In this document: one piece after another, positions 3,846 through 36,559 of the stretch | How the letters are laid out: every line of letters begins with the position of its first letter | How positions within the stretch are numbered: the first letter of the stretch is position 1 | NCBI GenBank assembly: GCA_002395925.1 | Contig: DGVM01000191.1 | Location: 63,886-127,885 of the forward strand | DNA length: 64,000 nucleotides | Reading direction: 5' to 3' | Origin: Bacteroidales bacterium UBA4284 | GTDB taxonomy: Bacteria > Bacteroidota > Bacteroidia > Bacteroidales > UBA932 | Position numbers and translations under genes: made by a program | The notes under the pieces: model-generated | Seen by the model: the letters and a program-made list of their open reading frames with translations, nothing else | What the model was told of the DNA's origin: nothing | Database searches by the model: none

Positions 3846-6800
3846 ATGCAGCAGATGAAACGTTTCTTACTATCCCTTGCTCTCCTGCTTGCCGCGGCGA
3901 CGGCCGCCTTTGCGCAGATCAAGGTCGGGGGCACCGTAAAAGACGAGCTCGGAGCGCCTCTTCCCGGAGCTACCGTATCTGTAGAGGGCACCTCCACGGG
4001 AGCCGTAACCGATGCGGGCGGAGCCTTCAGCCTGAGCGTACCCTCGGAAGAATCGGTCCTGGTGTTCGAGTCGCTTGGATTCAAGACCGTCCGCATGAAG
4101 GTCGGAAGACTCCGCAACTTCGAAGCGGTCCTTGCCGAGGATGCCGAATTCCTCGACGAGGTCGTAGTCATCGGCTTCGGAGAACAGAAGAAGCAGGACC
4201 TTACCGGTTCGGTGGCTACCGTCAAGATGCAGGACGTGGAGAACGGTGCTTCCCTCTCGGTTGACCAGGCACTGCAGGGCCGCGTGGCCGGAGCCGACAT
4301 CATGAGCGTCTCGGGCGATCCCACGGAAGGGACGTCGATCCGTATTCGCGGCGCACGTTCAATCACGGCGGGCAACGAACCGCTCATCGTGGTGGACGGC
4401 GTGATGAATGCCGTACAGGACCTCGGCGACCTCAATTCATCCGACATCGAGTCCATTTCCGTCCTCAAGGACGCTTCGTCCACTGCAATCTACGGTTCCC
4501 AGGGCGCCAACGGCGTAATCATAGTGACCACCAAGGCGGGCAGCACGACCACCGGGGCAAAGCCTACCGTCACGCTTACGACCAAATGGGGCGTTTCCGC
4601 TCTTGCACGCAGCCTGGACTACATGAATGCGGCAGAATTCGCAAGCTACAACAACGACCGCATAGACTTCAGCAAATCGGCGCACGGTGACGTATATCCC
4701 GTTACGCCGAGTTACACCCAGAAATACTCCGACCCCGAAGCGCTCGGCGAGGGAACCGACTGGCTCAAGGCCATAACCCGCACCGCACTGTTCCAGGAGC
4801 ATGCCCTCTCGGTATCGGGCAACAGCAAGCAGACCAACTATTTCGCCTCCCTTTCCTATGCCGACGACGAGGGTATCATTCTCGACTCCGGAGCCAGCAG
4901 GCTCATAGGGCGCCTCAACCTTGGACACCGCTTCAACAAGTGGCTCAAGCTGGATTACAGCGCGAACGTACTCTACCGCAACAACAATAACAACAAGACC
5001 AGTATAGGCGGCACCGCGGTATGGTCCGGCGCCGTCTATATCTCTCCTGTGCTGGGGATCGACAGCGAGGTCAACGACCTGTACAACTACGGACAGGGCT
5101 CGCCGTTCAACAACCCCTACATCACCATCATGCAGAGCGTCAACCAGCGCAAGACCTGGTCCAACACCCAGACGCTCGCTCTCACCCTTACGCCGGTCAA
5201 AGGACTCACGATAAAGAGCCGCAACACCTATTACAAATACGATTCTCACCTATACAAATATCTTCCCGGCACGCTCCCGGCACGCCGTCTCGCGGCTACC
5301 GGAGGCGAAGTGACCCGTCAGGACGGCGACCTGGTGCAGATCAACACCGACAATACCGCAACTTACAAGACCGATATAGCCCACAAGCACCATCTGGACG
5401 TGATGGCCGGCATGTCGATGTATTACAAGCTGTCCGGCAACCAGAACATAGTCGGCAAAGGGATGCTTGTGGACGAACTCCTTTGGAACGACCTGTCCGC
5501 AATCGGCGACAAAGACAATTACACCATCACTTCTTCGAACCAGGAAGTACGGAAACTGAGTTTCCTGGGGCGCCTCAATTACAATTACAAGCAGCGTTAC
5601 TACCTTACCGTAACCGGACGCGCCGACGCATCCTCCAACTTCGCGGCCAACAACAAGTGGGGCTTCTTCCCCTCCGCCGCCGTCAAATGGAATATCGCCA
5701 ACGAGCCCTGGCTCAAGCGCACCCGCATATTCAAGGAACTCTCTCTGCGATTGAGCGCCGGACGCACCGGCAACGACGCCATCGCGCCCTACAGCTCCCT
5801 GCAGCGCCTGAGTTCCTCCACAGGCGGTTACCTCATCGGCGACGGACAGGTTACCTATTACTATCCCAGCCGTCTGGACAGCCCCGACCTCACCTGGGAA
5901 AAGACCGACCTGTACAATGCCGCTCTCGACGTCGCCGTGCTCAAAGGGCGCATAAAGATGACCGTCGAAGGCTATATGGCCAACACCCGCGACCTGCTCC
6001 TGAGCGTGCAGAAGGCACAGCAGACCGGCTACAGCAGCTATACCCAGAATCTCGGCCGCACCTCCAACAAGGGCGTCGAGCTGTCGCTGGAGACCCAGAA
6101 CGTGGTGCACCGCAACTTCTCCTGGACAAGCTCATTTACAATCTCCCACAACAAGCAAATGGTGGAAGACATCGGCGGCGAGAGCGAAGTGGTCGCCATG
6201 AAGGACCAGAAGGGTTACATGATCTACGGCTACAGGGCGGGCTACCCGCTCAACTCCCTCTGGGGATTCCAGTACGGAGGCGTGTGGCACAACCAGCAGG
6301 AGATAGCCGACAACGACATTACCCATCAGTATGTGGACTACTACGCAAAGCCCTACAAATGCGGAAGGCCCAAGTACGTGGACCAGAATCATGACGGCAT
6401 ACTCGACAACCAGGACCTCACCTACCTGGGCAATGCCGATCCCATAGTTTACGGAGGCTTGCAGAACAACTTCCATATCTTCGGCTTCGACCTCGGAATC
6501 TTCTTCGCCTACTCGCTGGGCGGCAGCATCTACAATTATTCCGAATTCTTCATGGCCGGAACATATTGTTCCAACCAGTACCGATACATGCTCAACGGCT
6601 GGCATCCGTACCGCAATCCGGAATCCAATTTCCCGGCGGCGGGCGCAAGCGGTTCCAGCATGCTCCCCAGCGATTTCATGGTACACGACGCCTCGTACCT
6701 CAGGCTCAAGACTGTCAAGCTGTCTTATAAATTCGACCTCGACAAGAGCGTCAAATGGATACGGAGCGTGTCGGTCGGCGTGACTGCCGACAACCTCTGG

Positions 6801-6938
6801 CTCTGGACACGCTACAACGGCTTCGATCCCGACGTCTCGTCCAAGGTTGAGGACCAGGAGTCCACGATACGTCGCGCCGACATCGGGGCCTATCCCCGTC
6901 CGCGCAAGATAATTGGCATGGTGCAAATCAAATTCTAA
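3846..6938 (+). CDS. SusC-like TonB-dependent outer-membrane transporter
   Basis: The 1030-residue protein has a signal peptide ending at about AAFAQ, a carboxypeptidase-regulatory-like domain (KVGGTVKDELGAPLPGATVSV, about 27-105), a plug domain with the typical SusC text (LVFESLGFKT, EVVVIGFGEQKKQDLTGSV, ADIESIS-type SSDIESISVLKDASSTAIYG) and a long beta-barrel ending in an aromatic (MVQIKF). It should import oligomers across the outer membrane with energy from TonB. SusD follows after 6 bases. A second ATG at 3855 (MKRFLLSLA) is a possible start. No strong ribosome-binding site is seen, which is usual in this phylum. Substrate cannot be read from the sequence. Confidence 0.95.
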   Translation: MQQMKRFLLSLALLLAAATAAFAQIKVGGTVKDELGAPLPGATVSVEGTSTGAVTDAGGAFSLSVPSEESVLVFESLGFKTVRMKVGRLRNFEAVLAEDAEFLDEVVVIGFGEQKKQDLTGSVATVKMQDVENGASLSVDQALQGRVAGADIMSVSGDPTEGTSIRIRGARSITAGNEPLIVVDGVMNAVQDLGDLNSSDIESISVLKDASSTAIYGSQGANGVIIVTTKAGSTTTGAKPTVTLTTKWGVSALARSLDYMNAAEFASYNNDRIDFSKSAHGDVYPVTPSYTQKYSDPEALGEGTDWLKAITRTALFQEHALSVSGNSKQTNYFASLSYADDEGIILDSGASRLIGRLNLGHRFNKWLKLDYSANVLYRNNNNNKTSIGGTAVWSGAVYISPVLGIDSEVNDLYNYGQGSPFNNPYITIMQSVNQRKTWSNTQTLALTLTPVKGLTIKSRNTYYKYDSHLYKYLPGTLPARRLAATGGEVTRQDGDLVQINTDNTATYKTDIAHKHHLDVMAGMSMYYKLSGNQNIVGKGMLVDELLWNDLSAIGDKDNYTITSSNQEVRKLSFLGRLNYNYKQRYYLTVTGRADASSNFAANNKWGFFPSAAVKWNIANEPWLKRTRIFKELSLRLSAGRTGNDAIAPYSSLQRLSSSTGGYLIGDGQVTYYYPSRLDSPDLTWEKTDLYNAALDVAVLKGRIKMTVEGYMANTRDLLLSVQKAQQTGYSSYTQNLGRTSNKGVELSLETQNVVHRNFSWTSSFTISHNKQMVEDIGGESEVVAMKDQKGYMIYGYRAGYPLNSLWGFQYGGVWHNQQEIADNDITHQYVDYYAKPYKCGRPKYVDQNHDGILDNQDLTYLGNADPIVYGGLQNNFHIFGFDLGIFFAYSLGGSIYNYSEFFMAGTYCSNQYRYMLNGWHPYRNPESNFPAAGASGSSMLPSDFMVHDASYLRLKTVKLSYKFDLDKSVKWIRSVSVGVTADNLWLWTRYNGFDPDVSSKVEDQESTIRRADIGAYPRPRKIIGMVQIKF

Positions 6939-6944
6939 GGGCTT

Positions 6945-8504
6945 ATGAAAAGGACAATCATTCTTCTCGCTACCCTGGCCCTTAGCCTGGGATGCAACAA
7001 ATTCCTCGAAGAGCATCCAACCTCTTTCGTGGAGAGGGGCGACTTCTACAAAAGCGACGCCCAGTGCCGCAGCGCAGTGAATTCCTGCTACGAGGGACTT
7101 CGTACCGTTTATTCCACGACGCTGTTCACTCATCTGGAAGGGACGACCGATCTTGTGTACGTGCCTTCGGTTTCTGACGTCAATGCCATCCTCGACATCA
7201 ACCCTTCGCAGTGCAACATATCCAAAACCCTTTGGAGCGCATCGTACAAGGCGGTAATGTACTGCAATGCGGCGATTGCCGGAATAGAGGGCTCGGAGAC
7301 CATCAGCGAAGAGTCCCGCCGGGATTTCCTCGCCGAGGCGAAGACCATGAGGGCCTTCTGGTACTACCTGCTGACAAGCTGTTTCGGCGACGTGCCGTTC
7401 TACCTCGACGATGTGGTGGACCAGCTGACCATGGATAAGGTCGCACACCTCGGGCGCATGAGCGCGGTCGAGACCCGAAAAATCCTGATAGAGGACCTCC
7501 AGGGCTGTTTTACCTACGACGACGAGGGCAATTATACCGGAGCCCTGTCGCAGGTGCGCGCCAATGACGGGGCCGAGAAAGGACGTGCCGGCTGGGCAAT
7601 GGGCATGATGCTCATAGGCAAGATGGCCCTGTGGAATGCCTGCACCGACAAGGATTCGGGCACCGACTGGTATGCCGTAGCCGCCGGGGCGCTCGAAAAG
7701 CTGGTTCCGGTGTACGGCGAGCTGTCTTCCTATCCGCTGAGCGATTTGCTTTTCAGCGTCAAGGACGCGCCGGAACGCATATTCGAGGTGCGCCATTACT
7801 ATGAGCAGGGAACCTTGTCCTACGCCGGCACCCTCGCCCAGAACTGCATGCCCTCCTACAATGTGAACTCGAATCTGTTCGACGGGGTCTCCATCCCCAT
7901 GCTGGGAACGGACGCCAAGGTGGGCACATGCAACCGTCCGACCTCTTATTTCTACACCATTCTGCAGCCCGACAACGGCAAGGACGCCCGCGTGGATATC
8001 AATCAGGGCCGCAGGTACAACGGACAAGCGTTCAACAACGGTCTGGGCAAGCCCTGGATGGGCCCCAAGTTCTGGTGTCCCAATATGTACACCACCCACG
8101 ATTCCAACAATTATCCCTTGTTCCGCTATGCCGACGCCTTGCTGATGCTTGCGGAATGCAGCTGCGCGGCCCGCGACAAGGCGGGATTCGAGCGCTACAT
8201 CAACGAGGTGCGCCAGCGTGCCGGGCTCGATGTGTACAGCGTAGGCAACTGGAGCGATGCCGAGCTGGAACTGCGCGCCGAGAGGGCGAGGGAGCTTTTC
8301 GGCGAATTCCAACGCAAATTCGACCTCGTCCGCTGGGGCGTCTGGTACGATACCGTACGCGAGTACTGGAAGGCGGAGATGGACGCCAGGTCCATACCGG
8401 TCCACGTCCGGCCTTGCCACCGCTACCTTCCAATCCCTTCCGAGCAGGTAGTCAATTCGGGATATGCCCTGGACAACAAAGAATACAACGAAAATGGCCT
8501 GTAG
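6945..8504 (+). CDS. SusD/RagB-like glycan-binding lipoprotein
   Basis: The protein has 519 residues and a lipoprotein signal with Cys17 (LALSLGCNKFLEEHPTSF); the C-N-x-F-L-x-x-x-P pattern is classic for SusD. The N-terminal helical region (SAVNSCYEGLRTVYS; AEAKTMRAFWYYLLTSCFGDVPFYLDD) and the C-terminal part (RYADALLMLAECSC; INEVRQRAG; FQRKFDLVRWGVWYD) match the RagB/SusD family along the whole length. It should cap the SusC barrel and bind the imported oligomer on the cell surface. It lies 6 bases after SusC and 1 base before the BACON lipoprotein start at 8506. Confidence 0.95.
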   Translation: MKRTIILLATLALSLGCNKFLEEHPTSFVERGDFYKSDAQCRSAVNSCYEGLRTVYSTTLFTHLEGTTDLVYVPSVSDVNAILDINPSQCNISKTLWSASYKAVMYCNAAIAGIEGSETISEESRRDFLAEAKTMRAFWYYLLTSCFGDVPFYLDDVVDQLTMDKVAHLGRMSAVETRKILIEDLQGCFTYDDEGNYTGALSQVRANDGAEKGRAGWAMGMMLIGKMALWNACTDKDSGTDWYAVAAGALEKLVPVYGELSSYPLSDLLFSVKDAPERIFEVRHYYEQGTLSYAGTLAQNCMPSYNVNSNLFDGVSIPMLGTDAKVGTCNRPTSYFYTILQPDNGKDARVDINQGRRYNGQAFNNGLGKPWMGPKFWCPNMYTTHDSNNYPLFRYADALLMLAECSCAARDKAGFERYINEVRQRAGLDVYSVGNWSDAELELRAERARELFGEFQRKFDLVRWGVWYDTVREYWKAEMDARSIPVHVRPCHRYLPIPSEQVVNSGYALDNKEYNENGL

Positions 8505-8865: not shown

Positions 8866-11229
8866 ATGAGAGCAATCCATATACCGGCATTTGCGGCGCT
8901 CGCAGCCTTCATCTGTTCCTGCAGCACCGACATGTTCGAACGCACGATAAACATCGGCTCCGGACTCGGCTTCCCCGAGAAGGTCGTGACCCTCGAGGCT
9001 GCGGAGGGCGAACGTACGATTGCGGTGCTCGCGACCCAGGAGTACACCATATCTTCCGATGCGTCCTGGCTGAACTGTCCCGCTACCGGGCAGGAGGGGC
9101 GCGAGGGCTTTGTGATGCATTATTCGGCCAACGACAGCTTCCCCAGGGTGGCTACGGTCGTCGTCGCCATAGATGAACACTCCCACTTCGACACCCTTAC
9201 GGTCCGCCAGCGTGGAGCGGTGGCTCCTGCGCTGACGGTCAAGTCTCCTTCCATTACCGTACGCGGTTCGTCCGGCGGGGAGTTTCAGCTGTCTCTCGAC
9301 ACCAATCTGCCCGACGACGCCATTTCGCTTACCTGGGCTTATGACGAGGGTGCTGCCTGGTTCGAAGAGCCCCAAATCAAGGGTTCGGCGCTGCATTTCA
9401 AGTATTCCGCCAATCCCGAAAGCCATACGCGCAGGGGCAGCATAACCGCCAGCTACAGCGACGCTTTCGGGAACCTTCTTACCATTCCCTTCCAGCTCAT
9501 TCAGCTCTCCAATTCCGACAGTGCCGGAAAGGACTTCAGCCTGCAGGAATTCTGCAGCCTCGCCTCGGAGGAGGGAACGCCTATAGTCGAAGACGCTACC
9601 ATCGAAGGTATCGTAGTGAGCGACAAGGAGAACGGCAACTGTGGCGACAACACCCAGACTTCCACGACGACAATCGACTACAGCGTCTGCCGGAGGACCG
9701 TCTATCTGGAATCGACGGACGGGTCCAGGGGCCTGTGCCTGATTACCGTATCGCCGGACGACAATATCTTCCGGCAGGGTGACCGGGTGAAGCTCTCCGT
9801 GCGCGGTGCGACTCTTTACCGCAGCACCGTAGTGGACGCGCTGTCGGATCCTGTATTCTACACCCTCAAGGGGGTCAAGGGTAGCATGGCGCTGGAGACC
9901 GAACATCTGGGAAGAAGCGGTATCCCGGTGAAAGAGAAATACATAGGAGCGCTGACCGATGACGACATCTTTACCTACGTCACCATCAAGGACTGCGAAC
10001 TCCCCGTACGCAAGGGGCCTCTTACTCCCGTTTCCGAGCAGTTTACTTCCGAAGGCGGTTCCGACAAGGTGAGCAAGTTCGGAATACTGCTGCACGACGT
10101 GTGCGGGGGCAGCATGTACCTGTACACCAACACCACCTGCCCGTACCGCCGCGACGGCTCTGTGCTGCCGCAGGGCAGCGGTACCGTGAGCGGAGTGGTG
10201 GTCCACGAACTGTATCCCCGTTTCAGCTACATGGACAACAGTTCCTCGGACTCCGGAACTTGGGGCAACATAGGCCGCTATCAGCTTCGTCACACCACCC
10301 GGGAAGACATCAATCTTGCCCGGACCATGCAGGAGAGGAGCTTCTCCGCCATCCTGTGCGAGTGGCGTTACGTGCCCGACAAGAATCTCCAGCGCTACTA
10401 TGCGACGGACGGTGACACGCAGGCTTACTTCGAGTACAGTTTCGTGTATCCCGACTCCTATACCGACGGCCGCGCCGGCACACTCCCCATAAACAAACGT
10501 ACCGATTACAGCTATCTTGGACCCGTAGGCGCCTCCAACGCAGGCAACAGGTCCGGACTCGGAGTGACGCTTGCCGACGGTACCGACTGGATGGGTCCGG
10601 AATACAACGGATTCAACAGTGAATTCGCCGCAAACATCAATTCCGACGGCCTCGGAAAGGTGCCTGCCGACGTCGGTTCGGCCTGGAGCACCAATCTTAC
10701 TGCCCGTAACGGCAAGCCGATGTACACGCAGCTGGTCTTCTCCACCAAGGGCATCACGAGCTCCCTGATGAGCATGCAGATCAGTTCGATGAATTTCTTC
10801 TACGGTTCCACTCAGAAGATCAACGGGGTTCCCATGTACCTTCAGGGTCCCCGCTACTGGGAGGTCCAGTATTCTACAGACGGCACGACCTGGAAGAAGG
10901 CCGGCGGCTACAACCTGCCCGAGTTCTGCCAGACGACTCCCATGACCCAGCTCTGGCAGACCGCAGGCTTCAAACCGGTCAACATCCCCCTGCCGGCCGC
11001 GGAGCTGCTCGACCGCGACAAGGTTTGGATACGCATCATTCCGGAGGAATCGATGGTCAGCGGCAGCCAGACCGAGTATCTGGACTACAGCATCAAGTAT
11101 CCTTCCAGCGGCTCTTTCCCCACTGCCTGGAATTACATAGGCATACGTTACAATACTGTCGAGCCTGCCTCGAGCGATTTCGGCGGAGGCGGCATCGACC
11201 CTGTAAATCCTATAGACTATAACTGGTGA
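8866..11229 (+). CDS. Large BACON / DUF5689-like surface lipoprotein
   Basis: The protein has 787 residues and a lipoprotein signal with Cys19 (FAALAAFICSCSTDMFE). Residues about 40-130 form a BACON domain (YTISSDASWLNCPATGQEG to TLTVRQRG), and about 130-220 look like a second one. Residues about 225-480 resemble DUF5689, an OB-like domain: FSLQEFCSLASEEGT, then EGIVVSDKENGN and VYLESTDGSRGLCL. The C-terminal third (GPRYWEVQYSTDGTTWKKA; WNYIGIRYN) resembles jelly-roll binding domains. DUF5689 is known to me mainly from Bacteroidota proteins linked to extracellular nucleases, which is notable next to the EEP genes downstream. It sits in the surface-glycan-binding position of the PUL. No catalytic motif is seen. 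Confidence 0.7.
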   Translation: MRAIHIPAFAALAAFICSCSTDMFERTINIGSGLGFPEKVVTLEAAEGERTIAVLATQEYTISSDASWLNCPATGQEGREGFVMHYSANDSFPRVATVVVAIDEHSHFDTLTVRQRGAVAPALTVKSPSITVRGSSGGEFQLSLDTNLPDDAISLTWAYDEGAAWFEEPQIKGSALHFKYSANPESHTRRGSITASYSDAFGNLLTIPFQLIQLSNSDSAGKDFSLQEFCSLASEEGTPIVEDATIEGIVVSDKENGNCGDNTQTSTTTIDYSVCRRTVYLESTDGSRGLCLITVSPDDNIFRQGDRVKLSVRGATLYRSTVVDALSDPVFYTLKGVKGSMALETEHLGRSGIPVKEKYIGALTDDDIFTYVTIKDCELPVRKGPLTPVSEQFTSEGGSDKVSKFGILLHDVCGGSMYLYTNTTCPYRRDGSVLPQGSGTVSGVVVHELYPRFSYMDNSSSDSGTWGNIGRYQLRHTTREDINLARTMQERSFSAILCEWRYVPDKNLQRYYATDGDTQAYFEYSFVYPDSYTDGRAGTLPINKRTDYSYLGPVGASNAGNRSGLGVTLADGTDWMGPEYNGFNSEFAANINSDGLGKVPADVGSAWSTNLTARNGKPMYTQLVFSTKGITSSLMSMQISSMNFFYGSTQKINGVPMYLQGPRYWEVQYSTDGTTWKKAGGYNLPEFCQTTPMTQLWQTAGFKPVNIPLPAAELLDRDKVWIRIIPEESMVSGSQTEYLDYSIKYPSSGSFPTAWNYIGIRYNTVEPASSDFGGGGIDPVNPIDYNW

Positions 11230-23562: not shown

Positions 23563-24626
23563 GAAAGGTATTATCCATAGTTTTGTTCTGCCTTCTTGCA
23601 ATCGAAGTGCAGGCGCAGCGCAGTTACACAGATGCTCTGAGTCTCACCGTAGTTGGAAAATACACTCAGACCGCTCATCCGTGGGACCGTCTCGATGAAC
23701 GGGAGGGCATGACAGCCGGAGAAAAAGGCCAGGCCAAGCATTCAGCCGGCCTCGCAATCGCGTTTTCCACCAACTCAAAGAGCATAGGCGTGCGTGTCGT
23801 ATGGCGTGCAAAGGCTGCAAACGGCGGCAACATGGGCCCTATATCGGCCCGAGGCTTCGACCTTTACATGCAGAAGGACGGGCAGTGGCTTTGGGCCGGC
23901 AACGGATATCCGGGCAAGAATACGCCCGACGAGCCTCATGAAGTGGAACTCATCTCGGACTGCGGCAACGCCGAAAAGCACTGTCTGCTGTATCTGCCGC
24001 TCTTCTCCCAAATTGAATCCCTGGATATCGTAACTACTGAGGAAAGCTGGATTGAGGCTGATTCTCAGCCCTTCAAGGGCCGTATTGCCGTCTGGGGCTC
24101 CTCCTACACCCACGGCTCCGGAGCCGGGCGCTGCGCCATGACCTGGGAAGCCCAGCTCGCGCGTGCCACCGGGTACAACTTCATCAACCTTGGTTTCAGC
24201 GGCAACTGCAAGCTCCAGCCTTATTTTGCCGACGCACTGCTTGCCGGGGAACCTGTAGATGCATTCATCTTTGATGCCTTCTCCAATCCCTCACCGAAGG
24301 AAGTGCAGGAGCGCCTCGAACCCTTCATCCAGCGCTTCGTCAAGGAGCGTCCCGGCATTCCGCTCATCTTCCTTCAGACCATAAGGCGCGAAAAACGCAA
24401 TTTCAGCGCTTCCTACGACGCCCGCGAACACGCCAAACGCGCTACGGCCGAAGAACTTATGCAGCAGATGGTTGCCAAGTATCCCAACGTCTATTGGATA
24501 AACACCACCAACGCCAGCGCTCCCAGCCACGAGGCTACTTCCGACGGCTCCCATCCCGATTCCTACGGCTACACCCTGTGGATGCAGTCGGTCAAGGACC
24601 CTATAATGGAAATCCTGACAAAATGA
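23559..24626 (+). CDS. Secreted SGNH/GDSL-family esterase
   Basis: ATG 23559 overlaps the GH97 stop. The 355-residue protein has a signal peptide ending at VQAQ. Residues about 20-165 form a beta-sandwich-like N-terminal domain found in Bacteroidota SGNH esterases. The catalytic part has AVWGSSYTHGSG (nucleophile Ser), INLGFSGNCKL (block II Gly), a block III-like DAFSN, and DGSHPDSYGY with the Asp-x-x-His pair. It probably removes acyl groups such as acetyl from the glycan before glycosidase action. Confidence 0.82.
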   Translation: MRKVLSIVLFCLLAIEVQAQRSYTDALSLTVVGKYTQTAHPWDRLDEREGMTAGEKGQAKHSAGLAIAFSTNSKSIGVRVVWRAKAANGGNMGPISARGFDLYMQKDGQWLWAGNGYPGKNTPDEPHEVELISDCGNAEKHCLLYLPLFSQIESLDIVTTEESWIEADSQPFKGRIAVWGSSYTHGSGAGRCAMTWEAQLARATGYNFINLGFSGNCKLQPYFADALLAGEPVDAFIFDAFSNPSPKEVQERLEPFIQRFVKERPGIPLIFLQTIRREKRNFSASYDAREHAKRATAEELMQQMVAKYPNVYWINTTNASAPSHEATSDGSHPDSYGYTLWMQSVKDPIMEILTK

Positions 24627-28042: not shown

Positions 28043-29457
28043 AAAAGAGCCTTCTGACACTATGCGTTCTGGCCTTTATCCTGCCTTTGAGCGCGCAGGT
28101 GGGCCCCTCCGTCACGTACGAGAAGTTCCTGCAGGCCGCGCCGCCCCTCACGCAGGTGGGATTTCTCGAGGCCGATGCTTCGCTTCGCGCAGGGCGCTGG
28201 TCTATAGGTTGCGAATGCCTGGACAGGGATATGGCCATCTTCGATGAATACAAGCAGTATGTGGGGCAGTTGGGAGTCGGTTACGCCCGCATCCAGAGCG
28301 GCTGGGCCAAGACGGAGACGGAGAAGGGCAAATATGACTTTGCATGGCTCGACGCCATTGTGGACGGCCTCTTGGAGCAGAATGTCCAACCTTGGATGTG
28401 CCTTTGCTATGGCAATCCTATTTATGGAGACGGCAACACCCTTGGCAATGCAATTCCCTCGGACCTCGGTCCCTGGAAAAAGTATGTGCAGGCCGTCGTG
28501 GAGCACTTCAAGGGTCGTGTGCACTGTTACGAAGTCTGGAACGAGCCCAACATTTCCGTGAATGCCGGGCATCCAGAGCGTTATGTAAAACTTCTCAAGG
28601 CCACTTCCCCCATTATCCGCAAGGCCGATCCGTCGGCAAAGATTGCAGCCTTTGCCCTGGCATCGCTGGATTACGCGTTTCTGGACGAGGCCCTCAAGGC
28701 GCTGAGCCCGGGGCTCTTTGATATCGTGAGCCTTCACAAGTATTTTGAAAACCCGGACGAGGGGGACTACGATTTCCGCCTCCTCACCGAAAGGGTGCAT
28801 GCCTTCGACCCTTCCGTGAAGGTCGTGATGGGCGAAAGCGGCTGTCCGTCGGAACTGGGCTGGGCGCATGCGCTCAAATTCAATGAATGGACGGAGTATT
28901 CCCAGGCGAAGGTGATTCTCAGGCGCATGGCCTGCGACTTTGCGCTGGGCCAGCCGTCTTCCATCTTCACCATGGTGGACCTGGTGTATCCGGATTTCCG
29001 CCAGTCCTTCGGCCTTCTTTGCACCAGCCTCAAGGGCAAGGTGATTTACAAAAAGCCCTCGTTCTACGCCGTCAGGAACATGGTGAACCTGCTGCCGGAC
29101 ACAGTGGAACCTGTTGAAGTATCCTTTACTTCCTCCATCAAGGAGCCGGTTAAGGTGACCGGGCTTCAGAAAGACGGCAAACTCATCGGCGCCATGCTGT
29201 ATCTTTCCGGGAACAAGCCGTCATCGGCCTTGGAATGGCAGAAGGCACGTATTGCCATAGAAGGGCTCAAACTCGATAACCCTGTCCTGGTGGAACCCGT
29301 CACCGGGCGCATCTTCTCCCTGGACCGCTACCACTACTCGCCCAACAACCCTACCAGAACCTACAGCCTCCCCGTATGGGACAGCCCGGTGTTCTTGCTG
29401 GAGCGTAGTGCTGTAATATCGACTTCCTCCAATACAGAATGGCATCATGAGTGGTAA
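28039..29457 (+). CDS. GH39-like clan-A glycosidase
   Basis: The 472-residue protein has a signal peptide (LAFILPLSAQVG). The barrel shows GVGYARIQSGWAKTETEKGK, the acid/base motif YEVWNEPN and the nucleophile motif VVMGESGCPSE, with VSLHKYFENPDEG between them. This is clan GH-A, closest in appearance to GH39-type or unassigned cellulase-like enzymes. A C-terminal sandwich follows from about 365. beta-Xylosidase or a related exo-activity is possible; I cannot choose. The start overlaps the GH35-like stop (ATGA) and its end overlaps the GH3 start by 11 bases. Confidence 0.65.
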   Translation: MKKSLLTLCVLAFILPLSAQVGPSVTYEKFLQAAPPLTQVGFLEADASLRAGRWSIGCECLDRDMAIFDEYKQYVGQLGVGYARIQSGWAKTETEKGKYDFAWLDAIVDGLLEQNVQPWMCLCYGNPIYGDGNTLGNAIPSDLGPWKKYVQAVVEHFKGRVHCYEVWNEPNISVNAGHPERYVKLLKATSPIIRKADPSAKIAAFALASLDYAFLDEALKALSPGLFDIVSLHKYFENPDEGDYDFRLLTERVHAFDPSVKVVMGESGCPSELGWAHALKFNEWTEYSQAKVILRRMACDFALGQPSSIFTMVDLVYPDFRQSFGLLCTSLKGKVIYKKPSFYAVRNMVNLLPDTVEPVEVSFTSSIKEPVKVTGLQKDGKLIGAMLYLSGNKPSSALEWQKARIAIEGLKLDNPVLVEPVTGRIFSLDRYHYSPNNPTRTYSLPVWDSPVFLLERSAVISTSSNTEWHHEW

Positions 29458-31600
29458 ATGGTTATTGTGGACTTCGCTCGTGCTTGTCGCCTGCACGGCT
29501 GTTGAAACCAAGGACGGCTATCAGGAGCTTGTCCAGAAGGGCGGGGCCACGCTCACTTATACAGATGTTCCGCTACTGCGTGAGGGCGTCAAAAGCTTCA
29601 AAGACCACAATCGCAACGGGGTGCTGGACCCTTATGAGGACTGGCGGCTCTCACCGGAGGAACGGGCGGCCGATCTGGCGGCCAAACTGCCGCCGGAGTA
29701 TCTTTCCGGCCTGATGACCATCGGCCATACCGTGAATGTGCCCGGCATTTCGTCCATGAGCGTGAGCGGCATCACCTATAACGGAAAGCCCTATCAGGAG
29801 AGCGGTGCCGAGCCGTCGGATATCTGCGACAGGCTGCACGACGCCCTCGTGAACTTTGATACCCGCCAGATTCTGCTGGCTCATTCCGACGGGCCCGAAA
29901 CCATCGCCCGCTGGAACAACAAGGTGCAGGCGCTTTGCGAGAGCCTGCCATGGGGTATTCCCTCCCTCAACTGTACAGACCCGCGCAATGAAATCAAGGC
30001 TACCGACGAGTTCAACGCCGGTTCCGGGGGCATCTGTTCACAGTGGCCAACGCCGCTTGGACTTGCTGCAACATTCGATACTACCATTGTCATCAACTTC
30101 GCACGGACCGTCAAGCGAGAATATCGCGCCCTGGGCTTTGGGACGGCGCTTTCTCCCCAGGCCGACCTGGCCACAGATCCACGCTGGAGACGTGTGTCGG
30201 GCACTTTCGGGGAGAATCCGGAGCTAGTCCGGCAGCTGTCATCGGCATACATCCATGCCATGCAACCCGAGGTGAACTGCATAGTCAAGCACTGGCCGGG
30301 TGGCGGAGCAGGTGAGGGCGGAAGGGACGCTCATCTTTCCATCGGCAAGTATGCCGTATTCCCGGGCGGACGGCTCAAAACGCACATGGACGTTTTCTGC
30401 CTGGAGGCAGGCGGCGTAATGCCGTATTATACTGTTTCTTACGGGCAGGATCCTTCTGGTGAGAATGTGGGAAACAGTTACAGCAGCTATATCATCGATA
30501 CACTTCTAAAGAAACAATACGGATACGAAGGGATTGTCTGTACGGACTGGGGCATCGTTGCGGACTACAACGGCGACCCTCTCACCACCGGCGGCAAATG
30601 CTATGGCGTGGAGGCGCTTACCAAAGGAGAACGCATCCTGAAGGCGCTGGAAGCGGGTGTGGACGAGTTTGGCGGGACCGTTTATGCTTCCTGGATTATG
30701 GAGGCATATCAACTCTGGTGCGATAAATACGGAGCGGCTTCGGCACGGACGCGCTGGGAAGACTCGGCGCGGAAAAACCTTGTTTCCTTCTTCCGTAGCG
30801 GCGTTTTTGAGAATCCTTACCGGGATCCTGCAGTGGCTCTAGACGTGCTTTCTGACCCAGAGGCACAGGCGCTCGGGGAGGAAGCCCAGCGGAGAAGCGT
30901 CGTGATGCTTAAAAACCGTGGGGGCTCACTTCCCGTACAGACTGGCGCCAAGGTATATATCCCGCAGCGCAAAATCCCCGGCGTCTATTCCATGACCGGT
31001 CGCCTGAAGAAAGCGCCGTATGTTGGCTATTCCATAGATACTGCGGAAGTCGCCCGGCATTATACACTGGTTGAAGACCCTTCAGAGGCCGATTTTGCGC
31101 TGGTAGCGATTACAGAACCTGAAGGAGGCATTGGCTACAAGGATGGTCAGTACATGCCCATCTCCTTGCAGTATTCGGCCTATACCGCTACCCGGGCCAG
31201 AGCCGTTTCCATTGCCGGCGGCGACCCGGCGGAGCAGAGTACCAACCGCAGCTACAGAGGACGGCGCATTGATGTGGAAAACGCATCGGATCTTTCCCTT
31301 GTGAAAGAAACCAAAGCGCTGATGGGAGAAAGGCCGGTTGTCGTCCTTCTTCAGACCACCCGTCCTATAGTGATGGAGTTTGAACCCTGGGCCGATGCCA
31401 TCCTCGTTGCGTTCGGGGTGCGGAGCAAGGCTTTTCTGGAAGTTGCCTCCGGCGTCTACAGGCCCACGGGCCGCCTTCCCATGCAGTTCCCCGCATCAAT
31501 GGACGAGGTAGAAATGCAACGGGAAGATGTCCCTGAGGATATGACCCCTTGGCAGGACACCGAGGGAAACACTTATGATTTTGGATTTGGGTTATTATGA
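29447..31600 (+). CDS. GH3 family beta-glycosidase lipoprotein (first of two)
   Basis: The 717-residue lipoprotein (SLVLVACTAV, Cys16) has the GH3 N-terminal barrel with KHWPGGGAGEGGRDAH and the nucleophile Asp367 in VCTDWGIVADY, then the alpha/beta sandwich (RRSVVMLKNRGGSLPV). A calcium-loop-like stretch, DHNRNGVLDPYEDW, precedes the barrel, as in many Bacteroidota GH3 enzymes. beta-Glucosidase or beta-xylosidase activity on imported or surface oligomers is expected. It is clearly related to the second GH3 at 34304 (shared GQDPSGENVGN, IAGGDP and STNRSYRG), so the two may come from duplication with GH10 and the symporter in between. Confidence 0.88.
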   Translation: MSGKWLLWTSLVLVACTAVETKDGYQELVQKGGATLTYTDVPLLREGVKSFKDHNRNGVLDPYEDWRLSPEERAADLAAKLPPEYLSGLMTIGHTVNVPGISSMSVSGITYNGKPYQESGAEPSDICDRLHDALVNFDTRQILLAHSDGPETIARWNNKVQALCESLPWGIPSLNCTDPRNEIKATDEFNAGSGGICSQWPTPLGLAATFDTTIVINFARTVKREYRALGFGTALSPQADLATDPRWRRVSGTFGENPELVRQLSSAYIHAMQPEVNCIVKHWPGGGAGEGGRDAHLSIGKYAVFPGGRLKTHMDVFCLEAGGVMPYYTVSYGQDPSGENVGNSYSSYIIDTLLKKQYGYEGIVCTDWGIVADYNGDPLTTGGKCYGVEALTKGERILKALEAGVDEFGGTVYASWIMEAYQLWCDKYGAASARTRWEDSARKNLVSFFRSGVFENPYRDPAVALDVLSDPEAQALGEEAQRRSVVMLKNRGGSLPVQTGAKVYIPQRKIPGVYSMTGRLKKAPYVGYSIDTAEVARHYTLVEDPSEADFALVAITEPEGGIGYKDGQYMPISLQYSAYTATRARAVSIAGGDPAEQSTNRSYRGRRIDVENASDLSLVKETKALMGERPVVVLLQTTRPIVMEFEPWADAILVAFGVRSKAFLEVASGVYRPTGRLPMQFPASMDEVEMQREDVPEDMTPWQDTEGNTYDFGFGLL

Positions 31601-33138
31601 AAAGATTCGTGTTATTGACCCTTGCTTTATTGTGTGCATCCCTAGCCTTTGCTCAGCCGGCCATACCGCACCGGGCGTCGGAAGATACGCAAGGGGTGAT
31701 GAGCCCTGCCTACTGGGCTTTGTGGAACGATGAGGTCCAGGCGCGGATCGATGCCGACATCGAGCGCAACCGTAAGGCCGATGGCTTTGTCAAAATCCCC
31801 GGCCTCAAGCGTGGTACGCCGGTTCAGGTGGAACAGGTCTCATCGGCTTTCCTCTTTGGCGCCTCCACGTTCAACTTTAACCAATTGGGGACGCCGGAGG
31901 CAAATGAGCGCTATCGGGAGCTATTCGGGACGCTGTTCAACCGGGCTACGGTGGGGCTTTATTGGCGCGATTTCCAATGGTTCCGTGAGTCGCCCATGCG
32001 TTACAGTGGCGAATTCCGTGATAGCGAAGAATACTGGAATACGTTCAAGAAGAAACCGTTTGCCCAACCACATTGGCGGCGTCCGGCTTCAGACCCCATC
32101 GTGGAGTGGTGCGCCGCGCATGGGGTTGCCGTGCACTTGCATCCCCTGGCCTGGGGCAGCGGCACCAACAATCCCCGTTGGTTGCACCAGTTGGCGCCAT
32201 ATTCCGAACGGTCCCTGTTGGATTCCCTGGAAGACGTTTCCCTGTTTGAAAGCAAGGTCCCGCGCTCTGCGCGCTATGAGTCCCTTTCCCCTGCGGAACT
32301 CTCACAGCTGCTTCCCGGATACGGGAAGGCTCTTGGAGACACCTTTGACGCCCATGTGCGTAATATAATTGACCATTACAAAGACCATCCGGCAGTGACC
32401 AGCTATGACGTGGTGAACGAAAGTTGCAAGGACTGGCGTGCGGGCGTACAGGTTCCAGGGGACCTTTTTACCAAAAGCCGCTATATGCTGCTCCCCGGAG
32501 ATTATACCCGCCGGACTTGGCGCATCGCGGATGAGATGATTCCGCAAACCCAGCTGAAATGCATCAACGACTATGTAGATACGGACGACTATACCCGCCA
32601 GGTGCAGACGCTGCTGGAGGAGGGGTATGGTGTACAGGCCATCGGCTCCCAGATGCATCTTTATGACCCGGATCAGTGCCGCCAGATTGCCGAAGGCGCC
32701 GCCATTCAGACACCGGAGTACGTTTGGGACCTCATGAAACGGCTCTCCGCACCGGATCTTCCCATTTGCATCAGTGAAATTACCATTACAGCCCCCACGG
32801 AAGGGAATCGCGGAGAGATGATTCAGGCCATCATCGCCCGAAACCTTTACCGTCTGTGGTTCAGTGGCGAAAAAATGTTCGCCATCACCTGGTGGAACCT
32901 GGTGGACGGTTGCGGTTTCCCGGGAGAGCCCTCTACGTCGGGCCTTTTTCACCGGGATATGCGCCCCAAAGCGGCCTATAATGCGCTGGAAGAATTGATT
33001 CTTCACGAGTGGCGTACCCGTCTCGAAGTGAAGGCCGGCCGGAGCGGTGAGGTGCGTTGGCGCGGCTTTAAAGGAACTTATCGCTTGAGTTGGAAAGACA
33101 GCCGTGGCGAAGAACATACTGCAATTGTTGACTTATGA
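31597..33138 (+). CDS. GH10 endo-xylanase-like enzyme
   Basis: ATG 31597 overlaps the GH3 stop. The 513-residue protein has a cleaved signal (LLCASLAFAQ). The GH10 barrel has HLHPLAWGSG, the acid/base Glu275 in SYDVVNESCKD, and the nucleophile Glu394 in PICISEITIT, followed by ITWWNLVDGCG. The first motif is standard. The second differs from the usual TELD-type text of xylanases, so substrate may differ from plain xylan. No carbohydrate-binding module is seen. The C-terminal about 50 residues form a short extra strand-rich part. Confidence 0.85.
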   Translation: MKRFVLLTLALLCASLAFAQPAIPHRASEDTQGVMSPAYWALWNDEVQARIDADIERNRKADGFVKIPGLKRGTPVQVEQVSSAFLFGASTFNFNQLGTPEANERYRELFGTLFNRATVGLYWRDFQWFRESPMRYSGEFRDSEEYWNTFKKKPFAQPHWRRPASDPIVEWCAAHGVAVHLHPLAWGSGTNNPRWLHQLAPYSERSLLDSLEDVSLFESKVPRSARYESLSPAELSQLLPGYGKALGDTFDAHVRNIIDHYKDHPAVTSYDVVNESCKDWRAGVQVPGDLFTKSRYMLLPGDYTRRTWRIADEMIPQTQLKCINDYVDTDDYTRQVQTLLEEGYGVQAIGSQMHLYDPDQCRQIAEGAAIQTPEYVWDLMKRLSAPDLPICISEITITAPTEGNRGEMIQAIIARNLYRLWFSGEKMFAITWWNLVDGCGFPGEPSTSGLFHRDMRPKAAYNALEELILHEWRTRLEVKAGRSGEVRWRGFKGTYRLSWKDSRGEEHTAIVDL

Positions 33139-34307
33139 AAAAGATAAAACTTTCCCTCTTTGTAAAGGTCCTTATCGCCATTGCCATCGGTTCGCTTCTC
33201 GGACTCATCGCTCCGGACTGGCTTGTGCGGCTTTTCAAGACCTTCAACGTGCTGTTTGCGCAGCTTCTCAAGTTCATCGTCCCGCTCCTGGTGCTTGGTC
33301 TGGTGACGCCGGCCATTTACGGGCTCGGCAAGGGTGCCGGAAAGATGCTGCTCGTCGTGGTGGGCGTGGCTTACGTGTCCACCGTCCTGGCGGGGCTCTT
33401 CGCATACGGCAGCGCATCCGCCCTGTTCCCGCATATCCTCGGGGTGGGCGACCTGCAGACCGATGCTGCGACTGCAAAGACCTTCGAACCCTATATTGAC
33501 CTCAAGATAAAGCCGCTCTGCGATATGCTCACGGCCCTGTGCCTATCTTTCATGATTGGCATCTGCTGCATCTACATCAAGGGCGACACCCTCAGAAACT
33601 GGTTCAATGAGTTTGGCGAGGTGGTCAAGATGACCATCGAGAAGGCCATCATCCCCCTGATGCCGCTTTACATCCTTACCATGATGTGCGAGATGAGCGC
33701 ATCCGGCAAGATGGCGGTGGTGATGGGCTCCGGAGTGAAGGTCATCGCAACGGGCGTCGTACTTTCCATACTCTATCTTGTCGTCCAGTATGTGATTGCG
33801 GGCATCATTGCGGGTAAAAACCCCTTCAAATGCCTCTGGAATATGTTCCCGGCATATCTGACGGGCTTTTCAATCTGTTCGTCTTCGGCAGTGATTCCGG
33901 TAACCACCAAATGCACACTTAAGAACGGCGTATCGGAAGAAGTCGCCGATTTCGTGGTGCCGCTCTGTTCCAACGTGCACATGTGCGGCTCCGTAATCAA
34001 GCTTGCCACTACGGCCGTTGCGGTCGCCCTCATGGTGGGACAGCCCATTTCCTTCGGCCTGTTCTTTAACTTCATGCTTATACTTGCAGTGGCTACCGTT
34101 GCTTCGCCGGGCGTCATGAGCGGTGTCCTCATGGCCTCCGTCGGCTTCCTCGAGAGCATGCTGGGATTCACTCCCGAGATGACGGCTCTCCTCATGACCA
34201 TCTACCTTGCCCTGGACGGCTACGGCCCTGCCTGCAACGTTACCGGCGACGGTGCCATCGCCCTTGGCGTGGATCGTTTTTTCAAAAAACAAATGCCCGC
34301 ACAATGA
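33135..34307 (+). CDS. Sodium:dicarboxylate (DAACS/SLC1-type) symporter
   Basis: The 390-residue protein has about eight hydrophobic segments and the re-entrant loop features of the family: CSSSAVIPVTTKC (serine-rich hairpin 1 motif), VPLCSNVHMCGSVIKL (the motif that follows) and DGYGPACNVTGDGAIA (the NxxGD motif near the C-terminus). It should be an inner-membrane symporter of a small organic anion or sugar acid. It is coupled by ATGA overlaps to GH10 and the second GH3, which suggests it carries a product of this locus, perhaps a sugar acid made by the FAD oxidoreductase; that link is inference. Confidence 0.88.
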   Translation: MKKIKLSLFVKVLIAIAIGSLLGLIAPDWLVRLFKTFNVLFAQLLKFIVPLLVLGLVTPAIYGLGKGAGKMLLVVVGVAYVSTVLAGLFAYGSASALFPHILGVGDLQTDAATAKTFEPYIDLKIKPLCDMLTALCLSFMIGICCIYIKGDTLRNWFNEFGEVVKMTIEKAIIPLMPLYILTMMCEMSASGKMAVVMGSGVKVIATGVVLSILYLVVQYVIAGIIAGKNPFKCLWNMFPAYLTGFSICSSSAVIPVTTKCTLKNGVSEEVADFVVPLCSNVHMCGSVIKLATTAVAVALMVGQPISFGLFFNFMLILAVATVASPGVMSGVLMASVGFLESMLGFTPEMTALLMTIYLALDGYGPACNVTGDGAIALGVDRFFKKQMPAQ

Positions 34308-36559
34308 AGAAGTCCTGCCTCTTGATTCCGGTCTTGATCTGCCTTGCCGCATGCGGCAGAAACGAGATAAACTATCAGCCCGGAGAGGGATATACGATTG
34401 TCAATCAGACTAAAGGCCCCGCCCTTGGATTTACGTCTGCACCCATCCTCACCATAGACGGATATGCCTTCAAGGATCTCAGCAGGGACGGTAAGCTTGA
34501 CGTTTACGAGGACTGGAGGAAGGATGCAAAGACAAGGGCGAAGGACTTAGCTTCGAAGCTGACACTGGAAGAGATTTGCGGCCTGATGCTCTATTCCAGC
34601 GCCGTCGATGCTTTTTCTCCGGAGCTGACGGACAAGCAGAAATCCCTTCTCACAGACGACCACATCCGCCACATGCTGGTGCGGGAGGTCGCCACCCCGT
34701 CCACTGGTGCCGCATGGTCCAACAACGTCCAGGCGCTTTGTGAGCAGGCACGGCTCGGAATTCCGTCAAACAATTCATCGGACCCTCGCAACTACACGAA
34801 CGGCACGGCGAACGTCAACAATTACAAGCCCGAGCCCGACGGCGAGTACGATCCCTCCGGAACCAGCAATATCTCCAAATGGCCTCGCGAGATGGGGCTG
34901 GCCGCCACTTTCGACATGGACGTCATACGCAAGCATGGCGAAATGGTTTCGGCAGAATATCGCGCCCTCGGCATCACGACCGCTCTTTCCCCTCAGGTGG
35001 ATATGGCTTCCGACCCCCGCTGGCGCCGTTTCTACGGTACTTTCAGCGAGGATCCGGCTCTCTGCCGCGACATCGCCCGCACCTACTGCGAGGCCTTCCA
35101 GACTACGCCCGGCAGCAAGACCGGCTGGGGCAACCAATCCGTGAACTGCATGGTCAAGCACTGGCCCGGCGGCGGCTCCGGCGAAGGCGGCAGGGATGCC
35201 CACTTCGGAACAGGAAAATATGCCGTGTACCCTGGGAACAACTTTGCCCAGGGGCTTGTCCCTTTTACCGAGGGAGCGTTCAAGCTGCCCGGAAAGACCC
35301 GTATGGCATCGGCTGTAATGCCTTATTACACCATATCTTACGGGCAGGACCCCAGCGGGGAGAACGTAGGCAACGGATTCTCCAAATACATCATCGGGGA
35401 TCTTCTGAGAGACAGATACAAGTACGAGGGCGTTGTCTGTACGGACTGGGGCATAGTGGGGGAATACAACGTTCCCTGGGAGCATAAGGGCACCCCGTGG
35501 GGTGTGGAGACCCTTTCTCCTGCAGAGAAGCGTCTCAAATGCTTCGAGGCCGGGGTTGACCAGCTCGGAGGGGCGAAAGACAATGCCGTGAGCATTGAAG
35601 CCTATCGCCTCTGGGAGGCCAAATACGGCGAACGGAGCGCCCGCGAGAGGTTTGAGCTGAGCGCCTGCAGGATACTTGTAAACATCTTCAATACCGGCCT
35701 TTTCGAGAACCCCTACGTGAGTCCGCAGAAGGCAGATCAAATCGTTGGGTGCAAAGAGTTTACGGCTGCCGGTTACGATGCCCAGCTAAAGAGCGTCGTG
35801 ATGCTCAAGAATGTTGCCGGAGTCCTTCCCAAGGCCAGCCGGCTCAAGGTGTACGAGCCTCTGCGTCACGTACCTGCAGGCTTGTCACACTGGCAGAAAC
35901 CCACTCCGGAATACGACGAGTATCCGATTTCCAAGGAGCTGCTTGGCAGGTATTACGAGGTCGTAGAATCCCCGTCGGAAGCCGACTTTGCCATCGTATG
36001 CATCAAGAGTCCGGTGGGACACTGGGGCTACGTTCAGCCCGATGAAGAGTATCCTGAGGGTCACTACAACCCGATAAGCCTGCAATGGGGCCCTTACAAG
36101 GCCGTAAATGCAAGGGAGCAAAGCATCGCCGGCGGAGATCCCAAGGAATCATCGACCAACCGCAGCTATCGCGGCTTCGAAGAGACATCCTCCAACGCCA
36201 CCGACGCCATCCTGGTCAGGGATACAAAACTGGCGATGGGAGAAAAGCCCGTTGTGGTGGTGGTTGCGATGGAACGTCCGTTCGTGCCCGCCGAAATCGA
36301 GCCCTGGGCCGACGCACTGCTTACCGTCTGCGGCGTTTCCAACAACGCGATTCTGGACATAGTGAGCGGAGCGGCAGAGCCTTACGGCCTTCTTCCGTGC
36401 CAGCTTCCTGCCGACATGGAAACCGTTGAATCTCAGTGCGAAGACGTTCCCCGCGACATGCGGTGCTACAAGGATTCCGAAGGCAATACCTACGATTTTG
36501 CCTACGGCCTCAACTGGTCGGGAGTCATTGATGATGCCCGCGTGAGAGAATACCGCTAA
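34304..36559 (+). CDS. GH3 family beta-glycosidase lipoprotein (second of two)
   Basis: The 751-residue lipoprotein (VLICLAACGRN, Cys17) is a full GH3 enzyme: KHWPGGGSGEGGRDAH, nucleophile Asp381 in VCTDWGIVGEY, and the sandwich domain with KSVVMLKNVAGVLPK. A calcium-loop-like DLSRDGKLDVYEDW precedes the barrel. It is the last gene of the plus-strand run and its TAA overlaps, tail to tail, the stop of the gntR gene by four bases; I see no terminator between the two. Confidence 0.88.
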   Translation: MKKSCLLIPVLICLAACGRNEINYQPGEGYTIVNQTKGPALGFTSAPILTIDGYAFKDLSRDGKLDVYEDWRKDAKTRAKDLASKLTLEEICGLMLYSSAVDAFSPELTDKQKSLLTDDHIRHMLVREVATPSTGAAWSNNVQALCEQARLGIPSNNSSDPRNYTNGTANVNNYKPEPDGEYDPSGTSNISKWPREMGLAATFDMDVIRKHGEMVSAEYRALGITTALSPQVDMASDPRWRRFYGTFSEDPALCRDIARTYCEAFQTTPGSKTGWGNQSVNCMVKHWPGGGSGEGGRDAHFGTGKYAVYPGNNFAQGLVPFTEGAFKLPGKTRMASAVMPYYTISYGQDPSGENVGNGFSKYIIGDLLRDRYKYEGVVCTDWGIVGEYNVPWEHKGTPWGVETLSPAEKRLKCFEAGVDQLGGAKDNAVSIEAYRLWEAKYGERSARERFELSACRILVNIFNTGLFENPYVSPQKADQIVGCKEFTAAGYDAQLKSVVMLKNVAGVLPKASRLKVYEPLRHVPAGLSHWQKPTPEYDEYPISKELLGRYYEVVESPSEADFAIVCIKSPVGHWGYVQPDEEYPEGHYNPISLQWGPYKAVNAREQSIAGGDPKESSTNRSYRGFEETSSNATDAILVRDTKLAMGEKPVVVVVAMERPFVPAEIEPWADALLTVCGVSNNAILDIVSGAAEPYGLLPCQLPADMETVESQCEDVPRDMRCYKDSEGNTYDFAYGLNWSGVIDDARVREYR

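Follow-up and report, generated by a model that had tools for sequence, protein, structure and literature searches.

A SusCD locus rich in EEP domains, with an EEP-α-galactosidase fusion and a degenerate EEP homologue, in Bacteroidales bacterium UBA4284: a candidate for the utilization of a phosphoester-bearing glycan

Gene content of the locus

The window analysed here is a stretch of 64,000 nucleotides from contig DGVM01000191.1 of Bacteroidales bacterium UBA4284 (assembly GCA_002395925.1). From position 3846 to 36559 its plus strand carries a run of genes coding for a SusC-like transporter and a SusD-like protein (SusCD), DUF5689 and BACON lipoproteins, proteins with EEP domains (PF03372), glycoside hydrolases (GH), an SGNH esterase, an FAD-dependent oxidoreductase and an SDF-family symporter (Table 1). 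The SusC and SusD genes adjoin each other and the glycan-active enzymes are encoded in the same run, which makes it a polysaccharide utilization locus (PUL) of the SusCD type. The locus stands out by the combination of EEP domains and SusCD with six glycosidases (GH97, GH35, GH39-like, GH10-like and two GH3) and with α-galactosidase fusions.

All the features named in the preliminary description of this DNA (SusCD, DUF5689, BACON, EEP, GH97, GH35, GH39-like, GH3, GH10, SGNH and FAD oxidoreductase) are present. Its count of five EEP domains in four proteins is also correct, with two domains in the product of 13355-15115 and one in each of those of 15112-16107, 16974-18824 and 20653-23562. These proteins are not strictly adjacent as was proposed, however, and two fimbrillin-like genes (16114-16977 and 18824-20656) intervene. 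The fimbrillin-like genes between the EEP proteins, the second GH3, the SDF symporter and the fusion of EEP to GH97 are additions to the earlier list.

Catalytic EEP domains

Seven catalytic residues were examined (N, E, H, D, N, D, H), which sit in the EEP motifs N, LQE, TH, GDxN and SDH. Four of the domains keep every one of them: the two domains of the tandem protein (D1 and D2), the domain of the fimbrillin-EEP protein and that of EEP-GH97. D2 aligns with 3g6s (4e-35), with 4c1r (7.8e-35, over 202 residues), which is titled mannosyl-6-phosphatase BT3783 from B. thetaiotaomicron, and with 3mpr (8.3e-35). The model of the tandem protein is matched to 4c1r by Foldseek at 6.6e-25, and a stretch H-x-D-H-x-G-x-x-A-R is common to D2, 3g6s, 4c1r and 3mpr and absent from the D1-type domains. 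By sequence, predicted fold and this stretch, D2 is BT3783-like, with a putative sugar phosphatase activity. The best 50 PDB matches of the tandem model comprise BT3783/3mpr, uncharacterised EEP proteins, nocturnin, TDP2 and CNOT6L. Against viral structures the model matched giant-virus and phage EEP proteins, and nothing on the substrate was obtained from them.

A tree of 40 domains unites D1, the domains of the fimbrillin-EEP and EEP-GH97 proteins, the degenerate EEPs and two single EEPs in one clade (100/98), with D2 outside it, which suggests that the D1-type EEPs arose by duplication within this type of locus.

A conserved degenerate EEP

The 331-aa protein encoded directly after the tandem EEP reads D-D-G-N-R-L-H where the intact EEPs have N-E-H-D-N-D-H, with six of the seven residues lost. 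No Pfam match was obtained for it at E 0.001, and it is called an EEP from its similarity to the neighbouring proteins, a weak NCBIfam match and its predicted EEP fold (best matches 3mpr, 4c1r and 3g6s). The sites were counted in 78 members of the family with a length of 310 aa or more, one of them the window's protein. The intact residue remains in 9 (Asn), 4 (Glu), 0 (His), 3 (Asp), 7 (Asn), 0 (Asp) and 65 (His); at each of the six sites lost here, most members have likewise lost the residue. The neighbouring PDH motif keeps its Asp in 76 and its His in 66 of the 78. The usual metal and phosphate residues are thus gone, and part of the site is retained. The gene is under strong purifying selection, since its dN/dS against the nearest genome (G001) is 0.076, compared with 0.071 for the catalytic tandem EEP, and it is therefore not decaying. 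It is present in all 12 mapped relatives of the locus and, as a query, matches 12 of the 398 family genomes at E 1e-15 or better, nine of these at 1e-60 or better, the weaker matches including cross-matches to other EEPs. Judged by its residues, the protein is a degenerate EEP homologue, a predicted pseudo-enzyme, and it is not filed as an enzyme here.

Recurrent joining of EEP and α-galactosidases

In the EEP-GH97 protein, the Asp and Glu catalytic positions of the α-galactosidase 3a24, presumably Asp415 and Glu470, are both conserved in the alignment. The GH97 part scores below the cut-off of the retaining α-galactosidase model NF053844 (Table 1) and is thus a close relative rather than a certified member. 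Thirteen relatives of the locus were compared (L002-L006, G001, G378, G329, G284, G396, G383, G389 and G006), and their contigs all differ in length. The fusion query matches all 12 mapped relatives and L003, and the fusion is kept in 11 of the 13 (for G383, up to the contig end), while GH97 stands alone in G389 and is fused to GH3 in G284.

Another SusCD locus of the genus that is rich in EEPs, found in G001, contains an EEP fused to a GH27 α-galactosidase (L140:17226-19565), two more EEP proteins, GH39 and GH2. Genes of this locus also occur in G402 and G363, with other genes between EEP-GH27 and SusC, and in G369, where the contig stops after the EEP genes. The EEP of EEP-GH27 has matches in 7 of the 398 family genomes, in a frame of fusion length in five (in G392 with a stop inside the match) and in a 325-aa frame in two (G408 and G410). 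This type of locus (G001:C10, G363, G369, G402) resembles that of the window in SusCD, several EEPs and an EEP-α-galactosidase fusion, as well as in GH39, seen in all of them except G369, where the contig breaks off sooner. It differs in GH27 instead of GH97, in EEPs of other clades, in GH2 in place of GH35 and in a hybrid two-component regulator that adjoins it in G369. A histidine phosphatase gene (PF00328) adjoins it in G001 and G402.

A third type (P0259, P0264) has the GH27 first and then the EEP, in a confirmed order, and its EEP is about 45% identical to D2. This EEP groups with an EEP from G004 (100/99); the G004 protein at L147:4675-6402 is an EEP fused to a glycerophosphodiester phosphodiesterase (PF03009), encoded a few genes from SusC and SusD. 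One clade of EEP-GH97, EEP-GH27 and GH27-EEP is rejected (p-AU 8.9e-54). The tests of a common clade for pairs gave 5.1e-5 (EEP-GH97/EEP-GH27), 3.9e-4 (EEP-GH97/GH27-EEP) and 0.008 (EEP-GH27/GH27-EEP), the last value being modest and the deep branching outside the D1 clade poorly resolved. As read from these sequences, EEP domains and predicted α-galactosidases of two GH families have been joined recurrently, in three EEP clades. Such a fusion is not named in the titles or abstract openings of the literature found by a narrow search.

Among database relatives, EEP is also found joined with GH78 or with SGNH domains (P0088, P0097, P0104). Other phosphoesterases occur in the loci of the genus, namely a calcineurin-like phosphoesterase (PF16370/PF16371/PF00149) in the G389 locus and PF01663 proteins in G369 and G363, the one of G369 passing a sulfatase cut-off too.

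Conservation, frequency and mobility

A search for the EEP-GH97-SusCD neighbourhood in other genomes, suggested in the preliminary description, found the arrangement in 13 other genome records, a recurrence that goes beyond chance. The fusion gene is present in six loci of named records; two of these (L002 and L004) bear roe deer rumen in their titles, and the other four are titled uncultured Bacteroidia or Bacteroidales. One protein relative (P0187) is named Candidatus Cryptobacteroides. The tandem EEP is full-length in 7 of the 398 family genomes and split across two contigs in one. The GH10-like, GH39-like, FAD oxidoreductase and second GH3 genes vary between relatives, partly from contig ends.

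The preliminary description held that PULs seldom contain an EEP gene, which is only partly right and does not apply to the nearest genome, G001. In line with it, 3 of 20 D2-type EEP matches of the family have SusC or SusD in stretches of 14-20 kb, and in one of the three they form a co-directional pair upstream; these 20 are high-ranking matches and no random sample, and several of the stretches are shortened by contig ends. On the other hand, 11 of the 17 PF03372 matches of G001 lie in four SusC/SusD loci, with four in C3, three in C10, two in C26 and two in C51, where SusD alone is visible, at the contig end. This count leaves out C11, C30 and C77; C120 is too short to tell, and C50 has no SusC/SusD within 13.8 kb. 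EEP together with SusC/SusD was also found at G005:C61, G006:C17 and G004:C56. The combination of EEP and SusCD is thus no rarity in the genus and, given the 11 matches in G001, rarity was dropped as a general argument there.

Positions 3632-36534 of the window align with G001 at 95.9% identity in a single block (32,904 columns) whose ends coincide with the locus borders. The block begins near the end of the 833-3787 gene, and the identity per 1.5 kb ranges from 89.5 to 98.6%. A core block (60617-63993) is 79% identical to G001, and the alginate-type locus next to the EEP locus is 87% identical over the longest match, on other contigs there. The high identity of the locus with its sharp borders, compared with that of the core, fits a recent transfer, and the whole locus was likely transferred horizontally, as judged from one core block and an incomplete assembly of G001.

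Other genes of the locus and its surroundings

The nearest solved relative of the GH35 enzyme (8z47) is the β-1,2-galactosidase Bxy_22780. In the SDF symporter, Gly replaces the Arg of the aligned aspartate transporter, so that the protein may import neutral amino acids; the Asp that presumably binds the amino group is kept. A link to D-alanylated teichoic acids is suggestive and goes no further. A β-glucuronidase reading of the GH3 pair was set aside, since SN243, which is taken here to have an activity of this type, is the second-best match only. The name SN243 was not found among the texts listed by a literature search.

The DUF5689 protein is probably a surface binding lipoprotein. The short BACON-like protein has counterparts of 669-797 aa in G389, G329, G396, G378 and G383 and of 224 aa in G284, and PF13004 is present in two of the long ones. 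The 833-3787 protein has a counterpart that also adjoins SusC in the locus maps of G001 and G284. The name fimbrillin-like was given by eye from the sequence and from a PF13149 match below cut-off (20.2 of 27 bits) to a related EEP protein; Pfam matches of these N-termini at E up to 5 are only at chance level. Signal sequences were judged by eye and with a crude lipobox pattern, which missed SusD and flagged the tandem EEP, so that the protein locations given here are predictions.

Table 1. Features encoded at and beside the EEP-rich SusCD locus
Feature	Position	Strand	Evidence and remarks
Lipoprotein-like, fimbrillin-like N-terminus (named by eye) and beta-helix	833..3787	+	PF13229; flanks the locus
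SusC-like TonB-dependent transporter	3846..6938	+	TIGR04056 805 bits, cut-off 368
SusD-like protein	6945..8504	+	PF07980, PF14322 above cut-off
Short BACON-like lipoprotein, ~129 aa	8464..8853	+	Sequence reading and locus maps
DUF5689 protein	8866..11229	+	PF18942 31.8 bits, cut-off 28.6; PF13004 24.1, cut-off 25
Fimbrillin-like N-terminus and repeat part, lipoprotein-like	11226..13358	+	No Pfam match; aligns with 833-3787 protein
Tandem EEP, D1 (own clade) and D2 (BT3783-like)	13355..15115	+	PF03372 in two stretches; 3g6s, 4c1r; model pLDDT 92.6, Foldseek
Conserved, catalytically degenerate EEP, 331 aa	15112..16107	+	Site counts in 78 members; EEP fold pLDDT 90.4; dN/dS 0.076
Fimbrillin-like lipoprotein without enzyme domain	16114..16977	+	Aligns with N-termini of neighbours; no Pfam match even at E 5
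Lipoprotein-like, fimbrillin-like N-terminus and EEP	16974..18824	+	PF03372 33.1 bits, cut-off 24.5; lipobox-like pattern, Cys 16
Fimbrillin-like N-terminus and repeat-rich C-terminal part, lipoprotein-like	18824..20656	+	No Pfam match; aligns with neighbours; pattern, Cys 21
EEP fused to GH97 (retaining α-galactosidase type)	20653..23562	+	PF03372, PF10566, PF14508, PF14509; NF053844 733 bits, cut-off 800; 3a24 2.2e-169
SGNH esterase, GxDLY N-terminal domain	23559..24626	+	PF14606, PF14607
FAD-dependent oxidoreductase, lipoprotein-like	24623..26575	+	PF12831; in G378 fused to DUF4886
GH35-type β-galactosidase	26585..28042	+	8z47 1.8e-90; NF051902 369.8 bits, cut-off 500
GH39-like hydrolase	28039..29457	+	PF01229 36.2 bits, cut-off 26
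GH3 (first)	29447..31600	+	PF00933, PF01915; 9ul7, SN243
Divergent GH10-like hydrolase	31597..33138	+	PF00331; 8b73 3.2e-16
SDF-family symporter	33135..34307	+	PF00375; SstT model 66.7 bits, cut-off 308
GH3 (second)	34304..36559	+	PF00933, PF01915

The adjoining alginate-type locus (36556-60483, minus strand) holds a GntR/FCD regulator, a lyase-like protein (below cut-off), SDR and MFS proteins, a Hepar_II_III/alginate lyase, two chondroitinase-B-like proteins, TIG proteins, SusD and SusC. In relatives of the EEP locus, a family of secreted proteins of 553-572 aa either neighbours GH3 or is fused with it (L101:3376-5037, L098:749-2416, L105:2190-3908 and, as the C-terminal part, L006:12895-16626). 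No Pfam match was obtained for two members or for the GH3-fused part in L006, and no PDB match for one member; it is a candidate for a new glycan-active family. Next to the G329 version of the locus (L101:14467-19432) lie genes for an MFS transporter and for RraA-like, SDR and mandelate-racemase-like proteins, which may act on a sugar acid.

Interpretation and alternative readings

It is plausible, from the sequences compared here, that the locus is a PUL for a phosphoester-bearing, galactose-rich glycan. This reading gains support from the intact residues of four EEPs, from the joining of EEP to α-galactosidases and from the other phosphoesterases in related and neighbouring-type loci. A phosphodiester-linked glycan had been proposed before; the phosphoester-bearing glycan is retained as the best reading, with phosphomonoesters equally possible and one of the five EEPs not catalytic. 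Among the targets named then (teichoic acid, capsule, DNA or RNA), DNA and RNA are the less likely ones, given the glycosidases and the low scores of nuclease models. The sequence alone cannot name the glycan, be it a teichoic acid, a capsule, a lipid glycan or nucleic acid. As a first guess, the polymer may be a galactosylated phosphopolymer made by neighbouring Gram-positive bacteria, either a teichoic acid or a phosphorylated capsule.

In the scheme that follows, the gene content, its conservation, the catalytic residues, the degeneracy of one EEP and the recurrent joining of EEP and α-galactosidases are observed, and all the activities, the cellular locations, the order of the steps and the substrate are predictions. 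The polymer would be held at the cell surface by the fimbrillin-like, BACON and DUF5689 lipoproteins. There, the fimbrillin-EEP protein (16974-18824), as the proposed surface phosphodiesterase, would cut the phosphodiesters, and the phospho-oligosaccharides would subsequently be imported by SusCD. The tandem EEP would complete the dephosphorylation, D1 acting as a phosphodiesterase and D2 as a BT3783-like sugar phosphatase. EEP-GH97 would remove phosphate and α-galactose together, and the SGNH, GH35, GH39-like, GH3 and GH10-like enzymes would dismantle the remainder. The degenerate EEP, no longer catalytic through the usual residues, probably acts as a binding protein for substrate or product.

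In a bolder and only tentative form, a class of PULs in one Bacteroidales genus would degrade α-galactosylated phosphodiester polymers (e.g., galactosyl glycerophosphate). EEP and α-galactosidase would have been joined several times independently since they act on neighbouring bonds of one substrate, and the dead EEP would have become a phosphoglycan-binding protein. The fimbrillin-like lipoproteins would display one EEP and several binding modules at the surface, and the 33-kb cassette would move between species.

Several points weigh against the phosphoester-glycan reading. The EEP motifs cannot, as far as sequences tell, separate phosphodiester from monoester substrates and one domain, D2, is nearest to a sugar phosphatase, so that the enzymes may target phosphomonoesters no less than phosphodiesters. 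The accessory glycosidases differ between relatives (GH10-like is not in several maps, and G389 adds GH78 and GH30) and therefore do not sum to one known glycan, while GH10-like and GH39-like enzymes could mean a plant polymer with incidental phosphate. The flagging of the tandem EEP by the lipobox pattern makes its periplasmic place uncertain. No regulator (hybrid two-component system, extracytoplasmic function sigma factor or SusR-like) was recognised among the genes scanned in 833-36559, positions 1-832 lying outside the scan; the GntR/FCD gene at 36556-37272 is on the opposite strand, beside the alginate-type locus. In addition, the clades tested for the fusions had been chosen with a first tree already at hand.

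The alternative that survives best is that only phosphomonoesters are involved, for instance those of a phosphorylated plant or fungal galactoglycan, with all active EEPs being BT3783-like sugar phosphatases and no phosphodiester of the backbone being cut. The proximity of D2 and, by fold, even of the degenerate EEP to BT3783/3mpr and 3g6s speaks for it. However, the D1-type domains are without the BT3783-like stretch, and five EEPs, together with the PF01663, PF00149-type and glycerophosphodiester phosphodiesterase proteins in loci of the genus, are many for a simple removal of monoesters, which leaves this alternative rather unlikely.

It is improbable that the locus serves nucleic acid use or general phosphate scavenging, with the EEPs as nucleases and SusCD importing nucleotides or oligonucleotides, a role that has been suggested for PUS loci and for SusCD loci lacking CAZymes. 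Phosphate-induced PusCD loci are known, according to passages of PMC8115612, but the six glycosidases and the direct fusion of EEP to α-galactosidases do not suit such a role. Nuclease models also remain far under their cut-offs (for the tandem protein, ExeM/NucH 24.7 of 300 bits and MnuA 27.7 of 185 bits), the other EEP proteins scoring below cut-off too, and for these reasons nucleases were not the first choice.

Sphingomyelinases are EEP-fold enzymes. The substrate could be the head group of plant glycosyl inositol phosphorylceramides or of other phospholipid glycans, cut by an EEP like a sphingomyelinase or phospholipase C, with GH97, GH35 and SGNH trimming sugars and acyl groups. The α- and β-galactosidase beside an SGNH esterase, the roe deer rumen titles of two of the six named relatives and the histidine phosphatase adjoining the EEP-GH27 locus would agree with it. 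On the other hand, neither enzyme is among the best 50 PDB matches of the tandem EEP and the histidine phosphatase may be an unrelated neighbour, so that this substrate is improbable as well. Least probable is a locus in which phosphate plays no part, with the EEP folds repurposed for binding or other hydrolysis in a common type of PUL that acts on a plant galactan or a xylan-like polymer. This would suit the EEP that lacks six of its seven catalytic residues and the GH10-like, GH39-like and GH3 genes but not the four domains that keep every residue examined.

Significance and comparison with known systems

To our knowledge, phosphorylated glycans are a class of substrates whose use has few worked examples. 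A locus joining EEP and carbohydrate-active enzymes (CAZymes), with an EEP-α-galactosidase fusion, would open a route to their use by gut bacteria, and the degenerate EEP, as a conserved predicted pseudo-enzyme, is directly testable as a binding protein.

BT3783, which we take to be located in a yeast mannan PUL, shares with D2 the EEP fold, the alignment over 202 residues and the H-x-D-H-x-G-x-x-A-R stretch. In the window, however, D2 is fused behind another EEP, the other EEPs of the locus form a separate clade, and the locus has no Pfam match to mannan enzymes such as GH38, GH76, GH92 or GH125. Bxy_22780, the nearest solved GH35 enzyme, also sits in a SusCD locus, as described in passages of PMC11739564, but that locus has a GH144, not seen here, and the specificity of the window's GH35 is predicted from similarity only.

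Phosphodiesterases (PF00149, PF01663) were reported in 576 SusCD loci without CAZymes in a survey (Lapebie 2019, PMC6499787), whose passages available here count neither EEP (PF03372) nor loci that also hold CAZymes. PUS loci (PusCD) are phosphate-induced, as stated in part of PMC8115612. Both kinds of loci share with the present one the combination of SusCD and phosphoesterases, whereas the locus of the window also encodes six glycosidases and has EEPs as its phosphoesterases, including one that is joined to a glycosidase.

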